Source: a virus | IMG/VR virus record: IMGVR_UViG_3300009132_000046 | Location: 1 to 22,010 of that record | DNA: 22,010 bases | Reading direction: 5' to 3' (one strand) | Translations under genes and position numbers: made by a program | The notes under the pieces: generated by a model | Databases searched by the model: none | Seen by the model: only the letters and a program-made list of their open reading frames with translations | Told to the model about the DNA's origin: nothing | In this document: piece by piece, positions 10,732-17,199 of the stretch | Numbering within the stretch: the first letter of the stretch is position 1 | Layout: each line of letters begins with the position of its first letter

Positions 10732-11658
10732 TTACGCTGAAGCTAATTCAACAGCTGCCTCTGGTCTAAGCACACCATGGCCTACCGCGTACTTCGCTAC
10801 CATTAGTGTCCCTTGACGTCGAATGTCATATTCACTTTCGGCCGCAAGATCCATTAACTTAACTGTGCCACATGAACCTTTATGAGCTACTAAGCCGACT
10901 GTAGTTGAGAAGTCACCTTTGTATGCATCAGGTCCTGTAGTTACGTTAGTTTGTGGAATTGAATTAGTTTTGATGATAGGTAGTCCTGCAATTTTCAGGA
11001 TTGTACCTTCTGAGATTGAACCTTTACCATCATACCACTGATTAATTACAGTTGTATTTTGAGCTAGTAAGTAATACTGAGCTGGTAGGAAGAATGCATT
11101 TCTGTCATTCTCTGGAACATTCTTTTCATCTAGTGTTTGTTGAGCATCAAATAAACCTGCTGCTAGAACTGCTGAGTCAGTTGGATAGTCTGCATTAGTT
11201 AATGTAGTACCACCAGCTTGGCCAGTAATAGTAGAAGATTCGCGTGCTGTAAGAGCCATTACTTGTGCAATGTTCTCATCCATTTTCTTAGCTAGTTGGA
11301 AACCAATTTCGCTTGAATATGTAGAACGTACATCATAGTGGTTCATAGCTTCATCAATGTTAGCAATGAATGTAGATGATGTAAGTAGGTCGTCGATAGT
11401 TATTACTCTCTCAGCGTGATTGATTTCATCACCTAAGATTTCAGTACCTGGCGTATGGTATCCAGTTGTTGCAATACCTGTTGCAGGGAATTGTGCCGAC
11501 TTCCCGCTAGCAATTGTTCTTACGGTTGTTTTGTCTAAAAAGACATTGTGTTGTTGGAATGTAGCTAGAACTTCACCGGCAAAGACTTTAAGAAAGAGGG
11601 CTTTCTTGTCGCTTGCACCGTTGATAGACCCTAGTCTACTTGGATTTGCATCACTCAT
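10732..11658 (-). CDS. Major capsid protein (T7 gp10A-like, HK97 fold)
   Basis: A 308-residue shell protein, somewhat shorter than T7 gp10A (345). Family-typical elements are an N-terminal SDKKALFLKVFAGEVLATFQ helix, a TGYHTPGTEI segment, an RVITIDDLLTSSTFI box, a QLAKKMDENIAQ spine helix and a C-terminal YDIRRQGTLMVAKYAVGHG segment. The ATG is preceded by AAAGGAA at good spacing. The 435-base leader upstream contains a PqqA-like gene and hairpins. No slippery site or C-terminal extension like the T7 10B frameshift product was recognised; the gene is followed directly by a hairpin. Confidence 0.95.
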   Translation of the reverse strand: MSDANPSRLGSINGASDKKALFLKVFAGEVLATFQQHNVFLDKTTVRTIASGKSAQFPATGIATTGYHTPGTEILGDEINHAERVITIDDLLTSSTFIANIDEAMNHYDVRSTYSSEIGFQLAKKMDENIAQVMALTARESSTITGQAGGTTLTNADYPTDSAVLAAGLFDAQQTLDEKNVPENDRNAFFLPAQYYLLAQNTTVINQWYDGKGSISEGTILKIAGLPIIKTNSIPQTNVTTGPDAYKGDFSTTVGLVAHKGSCGTVKLMDLAAESEYDIRRQGTLMVAKYAVGHGVLRPEAAVELASA

Positions 11659-11759: not shown

Positions 11760-11783
11760 TTGATTTATAGTGAAAATCCCCCT
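11760..11783 (-). promoter_or_regulatory. Candidate phage RNA polymerase promoter for the capsid transcript
   Basis: The minus strand has TTTTCACTATAAATC; TCACTATA equals the core of T7-type phage promoters (T7 has CTCACTATAGGG). It lies about 110 bases before the capsid ATG, where T7 has phi10. The usual GGG start is replaced by AAT, and I found no second copy in the window, so this is only a candidate. Confidence 0.35.
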
Positions 11784-11814
11784 AAGAAGGGGTGATGCGC
11801 CTGTTTGCTAGGCG
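11779..11814 (-). terminator. Two short hairpins between the PqqA-like gene and capsid
   Basis: Read on the minus strand, CGCCT...AGGCG (11798-11802 with 11810-11814) is followed by CCCCT-TCTT-AGGGG (11779-11792) and then GATTTTC. The second is a compact GC stem with a short U-run, resembling a weak intrinsic terminator or an RNA processing structure. It would separate the PqqA-like message from capsid, directly before the TCACTATA promoter candidate. Confidence 0.45.
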
Positions 11815-11853: not shown

Positions 11854-11934
11854 TTAGCGGTTGCAAACATACATTGTGACCTCAAAGCCAAAACGCATTT
11901 CGGTTACTTGAGGTTGTGTCCAGTGAGTTTTCAT
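11854..11934 (-). CDS. pqqA: PqqA-like peptide: precursor of the redox cofactor PQQ
   Basis: A 26-residue peptide. PqqA is the ribosomal substrate from which pyrroloquinoline quinone is made: the radical-SAM enzyme PqqE, with PqqD as chaperone, joins a Glu to a Tyr of the peptide, and later steps excise the fused pair. Here W5-T6-x-P8 near the N-terminus, R14-F-G-F-E18-V-T-M-Y22 in the core and C24-N25-R26 at the end follow the PqqA pattern (W-x-K/Q-P, then R-x-G-x-E-V-T-x-Y, ending NR), including the required E-x-x-x-Y spacing. Length fits PqqA (about 23-30 residues). AAAGGA lies nine bases before the ATG. It lies between scaffold and capsid on the same strand as all other genes. No pqqB-F genes are in the window, so host enzymes would have to process it. 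Identification is by motif from memory; activity is untested. Confidence 0.88.
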   Translation of the reverse strand: MKTHWTQPQVTEMRFGFEVTMYVCNR

Positions 11935-12093
11935 ATTATTGAATCCTTTACAGTTAATTATAAGAATCCAGTTCAATAGAGAGCTACGCAAGTCTATCTT
12001 GAGGTATATGCCACTAAAAAGCGGACATGCCTAGGCGAGAGGATGCCTAGGACTTTTTATCTAAAAGAGGTAGAGGGAGAAGCTACCAGTCTC
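11935..12093 (-). promoter_or_regulatory. Leader of the PqqA-like gene / scaffold 3' region
   Basis: No gene seen. Besides the hairpin at 12030-12051, a TATAAT hexamer lies at 11957-11962, but no -35 box stands at normal distance (TTGAAC is only eight bases upstream), so a host promoter is doubtful. AGTCTC and GAGACT flank the scaffold stop as an inverted repeat. The region may carry a phage promoter or processing site for late messages. Confidence 0.3.
12016..12058. terminator. Hairpin after the scaffold gene, possibly bidirectional
   Basis: CCTAGGC (12030-12036) and GCCTAGG (12045-12051) form a perfect seven-base-pair stem with an eight-base loop. An A-run (12016-12020) and a T-run (12054-12058) flank it, so the transcript ends in U's in both directions. 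The plus-strand version has the shorter stem-to-U distance (two bases). On the minus strand eight bases intervene. It may stop or process transcripts leaving the scaffold gene, or block antisense transcription. An ATGCCTAGG direct repeat is part of it. Confidence 0.5.
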
Positions 12094-12906
12094 TTAGATA
12101 TTTGAGACTGCTAGTTTTGCTGCTACTTGTGCTCTAAATGCCGAATCAGTTTGATATTCAGGTTTCTGCATATCTGCTAACATTTGAGCTCTTGATTCAT
12201 AACCAGAACCTTTAGTAGCTGAACCTTTACCCATTACTAATTGCTGGCCAGAACCTGAGTCACCAGTATATTGAGCATATAGTCCTCTGATTGCCAACTC
12301 TCTCGTGGTTTGATCTGGAGAATTAACAGCAGTATTATAACTTTGTAATGCTTCTGGACTCAGGTTGGCCTTAGCGTACTCTGACATTGCTTGATAGTTT
12401 TCTTTACCACCAGTAATTCCAAAGGCGTGCTCTTGTGCCTGAGCAACCAAAGCTTGTTGGCCTGCAATATATTTATCTACAGTGCCTCTATCTATACCTG
12501 CTTTTTCTAAAGCTTCATAAGACTTATCTGTTAATCCTTGGTTCTCATCATACTCAGCACTAAGTTGTGCCATATCTAAACCAGCTGTCTCAACAGCTTC
12601 ATTAGCTGTTTGTTCTACTGGTTTATCTGTTTCTTCTGCTTTAACATCCTTATTACCTTGCGATTGTTTCTTTTCCAACTCAGTATAAGACTTTGCCAAT
12701 GCATCATAATTTACCTCACCAGTCTCTGCATTATAGAATTTATCAGGTATGCCTTCTGGCTTTGCTGGTATTTCTACATTCTCTTGTATTGCTGGGTCGT
12801 CTGGTAATTTGTTAGCTTCATCAACTAACTTTGTCATTGCTTCATCGTGTCCTTCAGGTGTTTCTACCTGTTCAGACTTATACTGTACTTCATTTAAATC
12901 TGCCAT
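12094..12906 (-). CDS. Capsid assembly (scaffolding) protein, T7 gp9-like
   Basis: A 270-residue very acidic, helical protein between portal and capsid genes, as T7 gp9 (307 residues). It would guide capsid shell assembly and leave the prohead before DNA packaging. The first 110 residues are Glu/Asp/Lys/Pro-rich and low-complexity. A central NAETGEVNYDALAKSYTELE segment resembles scaffold proteins of related podoviruses, and the C-terminal helix QMLADMQKPEYQTDSAFR would bind capsid. A GGGAG ribosome site precedes the ATG. Confidence 0.88.
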   Translation of the reverse strand: MADLNEVQYKSEQVETPEGHDEAMTKLVDEANKLPDDPAIQENVEIPAKPEGIPDKFYNAETGEVNYDALAKSYTELEKKQSQGNKDVKAEETDKPVEQTANEAVETAGLDMAQLSAEYDENQGLTDKSYEALEKAGIDRGTVDKYIAGQQALVAQAQEHAFGITGGKENYQAMSEYAKANLSPEALQSYNTAVNSPDQTTRELAIRGLYAQYTGDSGSGQQLVMGKGSATKGSGYESRAQMLADMQKPEYQTDSAFRAQVAAKLAVSNI

Positions 12907-15149: not shown

Positions 15150-17096
15150 TTACTTTACGGGGCATGCACCGCCCTCGCACTCTTGGTTTTCTATCTCACC
15201 TTTTGAGTCTTCTTCATCTAAAATAATAGGCTGAAGTTTGCTTACATACTCTTCATATACCTCTTTACTTACAACTTCTTGAGGTAGATATAGGTATCCT
15301 AGGTCTTCAGCAGACTTAGTTGGATCTGCTCTAAATAGGAATGAAACTCCTACATAAATATCCCAGTTATCTAGTAACCAGTCTATAATCTCAGGTACTT
15401 CTTCAGGTGAATAACTAACGGTACAACTTACATTTTGCTGACAGTAATTAGTTTGTATAAGTTTGTATCTGTCTAACTGAGTTACAGCTGATTCAACATT
15501 AACTTCTAACCCATTTACAGTATCAAACTTTACTGTATCCCATTTAACAGGGAAGCGTACTAATGTGCCTTCAGGATCGTTTGGATTCTCAAACACATGG
15601 TAACCAGCCGCTCTGCACTTAGCTAATAATGGATCATGAGCACCAAAGTTAACATTATTAAATACATATTTACCTAGAGGTTTATGTACTCCTTCGGTTG
15701 TATCCATTATCTTAGATAACGTTCCACTCGGTTTAACTGTAGTTACATTTTTAGGACGTGGTAACCCAAGTTCATCAGCCATTGCGTAAGCGCCGTGAGT
15801 TGCTGCGCGCTGCAAACTTTGGTACTCGTAAGAGTCCATGTCCGGTCTGGTCGCGATACCCGTAATTCCGACTCCACAGAGTCTGAGAAAACTGTTATTA
15901 AGATGCCACGCTTCTTGCAGTACGCCGTCAAGTAATGAGACACAGGTTTGTCTGTAGTTGGCTCTTGCAGCAATGTATATAGCTCTTTCCAATCCTGTGG
16001 TATTTCCTTTAAATTTTCCAATGTCTATCTCCACTAAATTACAGAAGGATTTATTACCTAGTAATATCTCAGCGCAAGGGTTACATCCTTTAAACCATGG
16101 GGCTCTAGCTGTTGCAGATGCTTGATTAATAAAACCAGGTTCACTACCACCTGAGTCAACCATGAGCTTAAAGATATTCTCTAGCTCTGCTTTAGTTGGC
16201 TTTGCTTTAAATAGTAATGAGTTATTTGATTGGGCTCGTTGCATATTCCCTTCCCAGAAGTTACGCTTTGCTACCGCAAACTCTTCCCATTCTGGTTCGT
16301 CATATGAGAACAAGGCAATCTCTGCTGATCTGCGTGAAGATAGAATAGTACCTAGCCAGTTAACTATATCTAATATATCCATACGAGATAGTAGTGATCC
16401 AGCTCTTCTATTCATTATCTTGCAAATAGCTACATATGCTTTAGCAATGGCAGTATCACCAGAGCTAATCCAACCGTAGCCTTTTAATCGCTCACCAGCT
16501 GGTCGTATTTGAGAGAAGTCTAAGATGATCTTCTTAGCTGGATGTTTCATAGCTAGTAACTTACCTATAGACTTAGCCCAAGCTTCAGCTGAGTCTCCAA
16601 CCTGCATGTACCATGTTTTAGTTTTGTTATTCCAATCTTCTTTGTTATTCTCTTCACCACCCGTCTTAGTTCTTTCAGAATTAATAACCTCTATTGTAGG
16701 AACCTTTTGAGTAAACCCGTTAAGCGTACCTACTATTGGTCGGAAACCGACACCGCAGCCTTGCATAAGTAACCAAAGAACATCAACAACATCTTGCACA
16801 CTCTCAACATGTGTGAATGCGCAATTAAATTGTGAAGCTTCTCTCTTTTTAGCTGTGTCAGTACCTCCTAGCCATAAAGTTCTACCTGAAGTAGATACCT
16901 TTCTGGTCAGCATTAGATCTCTAAGCTCTTCTAATTCTGCTTCATCAGGCGTACCTTCTCTTTTCCATAGCCACCTTTGGTGGTCAATGACTCTACCTAC
17001 TGTTTCTTCCCAGCTTTCGAAGCCTTCTTTTTTGGGACGTTGGTATGTTCTTCTTGCTATTAGTTGAGCTCTTAGACTCGGTGGTGTGTTGTTCAT
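15150..17096 (-). CDS. nrdJ: Class II (B12-dependent) ribonucleotide reductase, monomeric type
   Basis: Converts ribonucleoside triphosphates to deoxy forms using adenosylcobalamin, supplying dNTPs for phage replication. Numbered from the chosen ATG (648 residues): QFNCAF carries C92 of the active-site redox pair, MQGCGVGFRP follows, NPCAE carries radical C341 and E343, and SFC carries the partner C352. A TTVKPSGTLS box and a C-terminal CEGGACPVK swinging arm with two cysteines complete the set. It resembles the Lactobacillus-type monomeric enzyme. The ATG at 17096 has AAGGAAG directly upstream; a longer frame from 17138 lacks a ribosome site and adds 14 unlikely residues. The first about 100 bases overlap the preceding small gene in another frame. 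Common in marine phages; needs host cobalamin. Confidence 0.93.
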   Translation of the reverse strand: MNNTPPSLRAQLIARRTYQRPKKEGFESWEETVGRVIDHQRWLWKREGTPDEAELEELRDLMLTRKVSTSGRTLWLGGTDTAKKREASQFNCAFTHVESVQDVVDVLWLLMQGCGVGFRPIVGTLNGFTQKVPTIEVINSERTKTGGEENNKEDWNNKTKTWYMQVGDSAEAWAKSIGKLLAMKHPAKKIILDFSQIRPAGERLKGYGWISSGDTAIAKAYVAICKIMNRRAGSLLSRMDILDIVNWLGTILSSRRSAEIALFSYDEPEWEEFAVAKRNFWEGNMQRAQSNNSLLFKAKPTKAELENIFKLMVDSGGSEPGFINQASATARAPWFKGCNPCAEILLGNKSFCNLVEIDIGKFKGNTTGLERAIYIAARANYRQTCVSLLDGVLQEAWHLNNSFLRLCGVGITGIATRPDMDSYEYQSLQRAATHGAYAMADELGLPRPKNVTTVKPSGTLSKIMDTTEGVHKPLGKYVFNNVNFGAHDPLLAKCRAAGYHVFENPNDPEGTLVRFPVKWDTVKFDTVNGLEVNVESAVTQLDRYKLIQTNYCQQNVSCTVSYSPEEVPEIIDWLLDNWDIYVGVSFLFRADPTKSAEDLGYLYLPQEVVSKEVYEEYVSKLQPIILDEEDSKGEIENQECEGGACPVK

Positions 17097-17199
17097 TGTC
17101 TTCCTTATTATTATTAAATATGCGGTCCCAGTTATCATGAAGCCGCTGGTCTGTGACTAAGCTTGGTCGGCGCTTACTGCCTTTTCCTCCATCGCTCAT
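16993..17199 (-). CDS. Conserved small phage protein (GGKGSKRRP ... WDRIF type)
   Basis: Sixty-eight residues, basic and mostly disordered after residue 30. The N-terminus MSDGGKGSKRRP and the NWDRIF element at about residues 23-28 match a small protein family often seen in phages near nucleotide-metabolism genes; its function is unknown. The start forms an ATGA overlap with the 69-residue gene upstream. It overlaps the ribonucleotide reductase start by about 104 bases in a different frame, so both frames are constrained there. Its real end could be this long basic tail, or the tail may have grown by overprinting. Confidence 0.78.
   Translation of the reverse strand: MSDGGKGSKRRPSLVTDQRLHDNWDRIFNNNKEDNEQHTTESKSSTNSKKNIPTSQKRRLRKLGRNSR

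Follow-up and report, generated by a model that had tools for sequence, protein, structure and literature searches.

The cofactor PQQ is built from a short precursor peptide, PqqA, in which the side chains of a Glu and a Tyr are joined by PqqE with PqqD; it is then completed by proteases and PqqB/PqqC, and one PqqA peptide is spent for each PQQ. Viruses can supply a component of this kind, as in cyanophages, where psbA provides the fast-turnover D1 protein of a host energy pathway. The phage-borne pqqA described here resembles cyanophage psbA in that the virus provides the fastest-turnover component of a host energy pathway, but the two proteins are unrelated, and PqqA is a substrate spent stoichiometrically in biosynthesis, whereas D1 is a subunit of a photosystem. 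It is encoded in a 22,010-nt stretch of viral DNA (IMG/VR record IMGVR_UViG_3300009132_000046, positions 1 to 22,010), which we refer to as the window. The PqqA of Methylophilaceae has the E-V-T-x-Y core in common with the window peptide, but the latter carries three extra N-terminal residues (MKTHW vs MW), and its gene, unlike that of the bacteria, is phage-borne, lies in a capsid operon and is not accompanied by pqqE.

Coutinho et al. (2020) described PqqA alongside a methanol dehydrogenase in a single population of methylotroph phages from Lake Baikal, VP_266, and proposed that this phage-encoded PqqA is an auxiliary metabolic gene directed at a methylotroph host (PMC7678222). Our loci are alike in this respect, whereas PqqA is here usually alone (a dehydrogenase accompanies it in one of 80 records) and, in the window lineage, sits within a T7-like structural operon. 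The available part of a 2026 reservoir-sediment study lists viral pqqA, pqqD and pqqE and treats viral pqqA, found by search, as a phosphorus-cycling auxiliary gene, read as phosphate solubilisation, with no peptide analysis in that part (PMC13188868). The suggestion of an earlier note on this DNA that PqqA could act in a phage as an auxiliary metabolic gene thus has precedents (PMC7678222, PMC13188868). A literature search that covered few subscription papers and preprints returned no report of a general presence of pqqA in OM43 phages, nor of the capsid-operon position or the substrate-only pattern, and the spread of viral pqqA, this pattern and this position appear to be new.

A pqqA gene between the scaffold and capsid genes

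The window belongs to a T7-like (HTVC019P-type) podovirus, with structural genes for a head-tail adaptor, a head assembly/scaffold protein, the major capsid protein, tail proteins and internal virion proteins, followed by DNA polymerase A, a 5'-3' exonuclease, thymidylate synthase and a ribonucleotide reductase of the B12-dependent type. The pqqA region comprises the following features.

10732-11658, minus strand: major capsid protein (PHROG 267, E=1.3e-80), downstream of pqqA
11778..11792, minus strand: short hairpin CCCCTTCTTAGGGGG-ATTTT between pqqA and the capsid gene, with similar stems at the corresponding position in relatives
11854..11934, minus strand: pqqA-like gene, 26 codons plus TAA, encoding MKTHWTQPQVTEMRFGFEVTMYVCNR
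11944..11948, minus strand: Shine-Dalgarno AAGGA, 9 nt ahead of the pqqA ATG
12030..12051, strand not assigned: inverted repeat in the scaffold-pqqA gap, with a comparable element at the same place in relatives
12094-12906, minus strand: scaffold / head assembly protein (PHROG 1052, E=1.5e-51), upstream of pqqA

The pqqA frame opens with an ATG at 11934, its last codon ends at 11857 and its TAA occupies 11856-11854, which places the gene 159 nt past the scaffold stop and 195 nt ahead of the capsid start. The earlier note had read this ORF, from the letters alone, as a PqqA-like precursor gene with a good ribosome site, situated between scaffold and capsid, and on each of these points it was right. 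The ORF is real, the residues that the note named are all correct (W5, T6, P8, R14, G16, E18, V19, T20, Y22, N25 and R26), the flanking genes match the two PHROG families given above, and AAGGA stands 9 nt before the ATG within the ribosome site GTAAAGGATTCAATAATATG (the sequence preceding the ATG being GTAAAGGATTCAATAAT). In profile searches the peptide exceeded the curated cut-offs of both Pfam PF08042 (PqqA; 41.8 bits, E=1e-10, cut-off 21.1) and NCBIfam TIGR02107 (45.1 bits, E=6e-12, cut-off 20), and the latter model matched none of 14 control genomes. At 26 residues the peptide is of PqqA length (~22-29 residues, with the end close behind the Tyr), and its Glu and Tyr lie four residues apart in an E-V-T-x-Y arrangement, E18 and Y22 being what we take to be the positions cross-linked by PqqE. 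The ORF is almost certainly a PqqA by identity. A 23-residue consensus of viral PqqA peptides matched no solved structure by sequence.

Given its position in the operon, pqqA would be expressed late, together with the capsid gene. A repeated promoter motif was sought near the capsid gene and not found, sigma-70-like sites were at chance level and no sigma-70 promoter was found. The hairpin in the pqqA-capsid gap may be either a terminator or a processing site. Elsewhere in the window, the ribonucleotide reductase (15150-17138) has a B12-dependent (class II) insertion domain and adjoins thymidylate synthase, and an ORF of internal repeats (MQLRLLKMQLRYP...) at 533-760, without a Pfam match and close to the window end, may represent another reading frame of a repeat-rich structural gene.

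Conservation among close capsid relatives

Scanning IMG/VR with the window capsid protein returned 64 relatives. Where the capsid was at least 89% identical, PqqA lay upstream of the capsid gene in all 12 relatives with a readable gap; in one other relative at this identity (L130) the place of a readable gap is taken by an HNH-endonuclease-like ORF, after which the contig ends. At capsid relatives of about 43-54% identity we found no PqqA match. The frame, the Glu and the Tyr, on whose fate in relatives the earlier note had staked its reading, are retained in every close relative examined. Nine distinct coding sequences gave a pN of 0.17 and a pS of 0.67, and the resulting ratio of 0.25, with pS near saturation, indicates that the peptide is under purifying selection. 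Two marks of a viral auxiliary metabolic gene, a bona fide viral genome and selection, are therefore found, in the T7-like operon, the isolates described below and this ratio. Two close relatives (L130:1-420, and L139 upstream of the capsid gene) have HNH-endonuclease-like ORFs inserted between pqqA and the capsid gene, so this gap is a mobile-gene insertion site.

pqqA in isolated phages and uncultured viruses

A tblastn search of 50,697 phage records with the window peptide returned 12 records, nine of them Methylophilales phages (P19250A, Venkman, MEP301, MEP401, MEP402 and four Melnitz phages), one the environmental podovirus ctXG6705, and two labelled 'Acinetobacter phage' MD-2021a (CAKLQF020000010.1 and CAKLQH020000055.1). 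PqqA was present in every Methylophilales phage record returned (nine records, five lineages, five different neighbourhoods), a sample that leaves out the OM43 isolates MEP431-434, which the taxonomy places in the genus Pelagivirus. The MD-2021a pair we rejected as phage; it looks like bacterial DNA, with pqqB-E beside pqqA in the one record inspected, and its name looks wrong. No phage with a Methylorubrum-type PqqA was found in INPHARED. A related T7-like capsid occurs in 1,448 phage records, and none of the matches listed is among the PqqA-positive phage records. The earlier note had guessed that the gene might be overlooked in many phages, and this proved well founded: in six phage records inspected, the ORF falls in an unannotated gap or is overlapped by an opposite-strand hypothetical gene and is nowhere annotated as PqqA, PqqA goes unmentioned in the publications on MEP301, the MEP401/402 lineage and Melnitz, and IMG/VR holds many more copies.

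Searching IMG/VR with degenerate DNA patterns of PqqA brought the total of viral PqqA there to well over 150 sequences beyond the isolates. The FGFEVTMY pattern occurred in at least 120 stretches, with 120 of 120 among the matches listed encoding complete PqqA peptides that end in a stop, and the GFEVTMYF pattern in 64 stretches, all 64 encoding PqqA peptides, mostly of other types and on contigs of up to 340 kb; a GMEVT-type pattern gave seven matches, four of which resemble PqqA. Two further scans used the N-terminal half only, with patterns that exclude the reactive Glu and Tyr and so avoid selecting for them. Both residues were nevertheless kept, in 119 of 119 loci among the matches listed of the first scan (34 distinct peptides) and in 25 of 25 loci of the second (6 distinct peptides). 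The viral copies scored are 23-26 residues long, and a Shine-Dalgarno at 3-12 nt precedes all 155 viral pqqA starts scored, compared with 310 of 3,258 random ATGs (9.5%).

The 157 viral loci sort into 22 to 70 gene neighbourhoods, depending on the threshold, a spread which indicates that phages have acquired pqqA, or exchanged it among themselves, on many occasions. The window, P19250A, MEP301, MEP402 and Melnitz occupy separate neighbourhoods, and Venkman groups with ctXG6705. We also observed a second viral PqqA group (L349-L412, 64 contigs), whose peptides often end in KNR, KNS, KAV or KQV and differ from the Methylophilaceae type, so that hosts other than Methylophilaceae are likely for it. 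Two very large viral contigs, L358 (340 kb) and L407 (217 kb), carry a terminase and share one PqqA peptide, and pqqE is absent from both.

The likely host and the substrate-only pattern

The window PqqA matches MWTQPQATEMRFGFEVTMYVCNR of marine Methylophilaceae (L213, L275, L285) at 21 of 22 residues (W to R) and is nearer to it than to any other viral peptide sampled; in a search with one genome per species, the exact pattern EMRFGFEVTMYV matched records named as Methylophilaceae or as broader groups containing them. With a peptide one residue from marine Methylophilaceae PqqA, the window phage likely has an OM43-type methylotroph as its host, an assignment drawn from the peptide and its relatives. 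The window and L129 have capsids that are 97% identical, but 4 of the 22 residues of PqqA differ between the two; that the window peptide is nearer to the host one despite this capsid identity suggests replacement by host-like sequence at the window pqqA site.

Three OM43-type genomes (G042, G043 and G044) each contain pqqE, three pqqA copies and a PQQ alcohol dehydrogenase. The likely host type, as far as the host can be inferred, therefore has the pqqE whose absence the earlier note had raised as a possible objection. Host pqqA is itself multicopy and unlinked to pqqE in OM43-type genomes; in all three, two of the copies lie about 200 bp apart and, where the contigs show it, distant from pqqE.

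The earlier note had also supposed that the phage carries the substrate and nothing else of the pathway, which agrees with what we found across the viral records. In 47 PqqA-bearing viral records searched over their full length no PqqE exceeds the cut-off, and a further 33 have neither a PqqE above it nor a PQQ alcohol dehydrogenase, giving pqqE in 0 of 80 records. Many of these are fragments, so that the absence is not certain for each of them, but the isolates among them are complete genomes. A PQQ alcohol dehydrogenase occurs in one of the 80, a 72 kb viral contig (L043, G010), where the dehydrogenase gene (34049-35731) and a lone pqqA (41890-41952) are about 6 kb apart; like the Baikal phage VP_266, this contig thus combines a dehydrogenase with pqqA.

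Discussion

The explanation with the least to recommend it is that the viral contigs are contaminated with bacterial DNA or misassembled, a chance we regard as negligible. The bacterial-looking MD-2021a pair speaks for it, but the window pqqA lies inside a T7-like structural operon and other copies are in complete genomes of isolated phages, which refutes contamination for the window and the isolates; moreover, no relatives of pqqB-E were found near pqqA in the viral loci examined, and 27 of the 50 longer PqqA-bearing viral records have a terminase. It is also highly improbable that a small host gene was acquired by chance and is carried unselected. The gene is short and cheap to carry, and the closeness of the window copy to the host peptide would fit a chance acquisition, yet pqqA is kept in all readable close relatives though synonymous sites are near saturation, many lineages without pqqE carry it, and its ribosome site is always present.

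If the peptide is made and used, it could in principle act as a decoy or inhibitor that occupies PqqD/PqqE, lowers PQQ and slows host methanol oxidation or frees SAM, as the earlier note had offered by way of alternative. It retains the N-terminal and central region generally expected for PqqD recognition, strong late expression could flood PqqD, and pqqA copies are already present in the host. This alternative is nevertheless weakened, and we consider it very unlikely, because in 63 of 157 viral loci the peptide is letter-identical to a sampled host PqqA and hence must be a substrate, and because the Glu and Tyr, needless for a decoy, are kept in 34 of 34 (among the matches listed) and 6 of 6 distinct peptides. 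A different possibility is that the peptide is processed normally and the benefit lies elsewhere, with PQQ acting as a redox protectant or serving sugar or aldehyde dehydrogenases in non-methylotroph hosts. The second PqqA group, for which other hosts are likely, points in this direction, but the likely host of the window lineage is methylotrophic, with the PQQ enzyme xoxF, a methanol dehydrogenase, as the most abundant OM43 transcript (PMC5120137), and pqqA occurs together with a PQQ alcohol dehydrogenase on L043 and with methanol dehydrogenase in VP_266 (PMC7678222), so we judge a benefit of this other kind unlikely.

We consider it quite probable that the window encodes a functional, Methylophilaceae-derived pqqA, carried alone by a T7-like phage, that serves as a substrate for host PQQ synthesis during infection. 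The gene would have been acquired from a Methylophilaceae (OM43-type) host without the pathway enzymes. Late in infection, PqqA would be made from the capsid operon and enter the host PqqD/PqqE/PqqB/PqqC pathway, where host PqqE would link E18 to Y22 and the remainder of the phage peptide would be cut off and lost. After shut-off of host transcription the enzymes would persist and be reused while the peptide supply stops; because each PQQ spends one PqqA, the phage would need only pqqA, and replacing this consumable alone could keep PQQ, and hence the very abundant PQQ-dependent methanol dehydrogenase, supplied. That the gene is translated in infection, that host PqqE processes its product and that the phage benefits by way of PQQ are predictions, as are raised PQQ and dehydrogenase activity in infected cells.

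The supply of PqqA does influence PQQ in other bacteria: overexpression of pqqAB in Acetobacter increased PQQ by 29% (PMC7936290), and PMC6520949 quotes less PQQ upon pqqA disruption in Methylorubrum, as well as several pqqA copies in Methylovorus. A weak point of the substrate reading is that dehydrogenase turnover does not use up PQQ, which makes the need for new PQQ less than obvious, and a second is that host-type genomes already have three pqqA copies. We also count against it that OM43 strain H5P1, a laboratory phage host, was cultivated with added PQQ, and its phages can therefore propagate on externally supplied PQQ (PMC9004378).

More broadly, we lean towards the view that phages of PQQ-dependent bacteria, above all those of methylotrophs, have on repeated occasions taken up the consumable precursor of a host cofactor and nothing else, which would sustain cofactor supply after host shut-off. 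Because lone pqqA occurs in every OM43-phage type examined and in well over 150 other viral sequences, these viruses probably help control methanol oxidation. If this is true, a gene that annotators have overlooked is present in nearly all known phages of an abundant marine methylotroph clade, PQQ supply would be marked as a limiting step during infection, and a virus could steer a pathway via a used-up substrate peptide instead of an enzyme. Auxiliary genes of this 'substrate-only' kind would then form a general class, of a length below what gene callers pick up, and short RiPP precursors would be worth seeking in other phages. Through such genes, viruses would be able to affect how methanol is oxidised in coastal and fresh waters.
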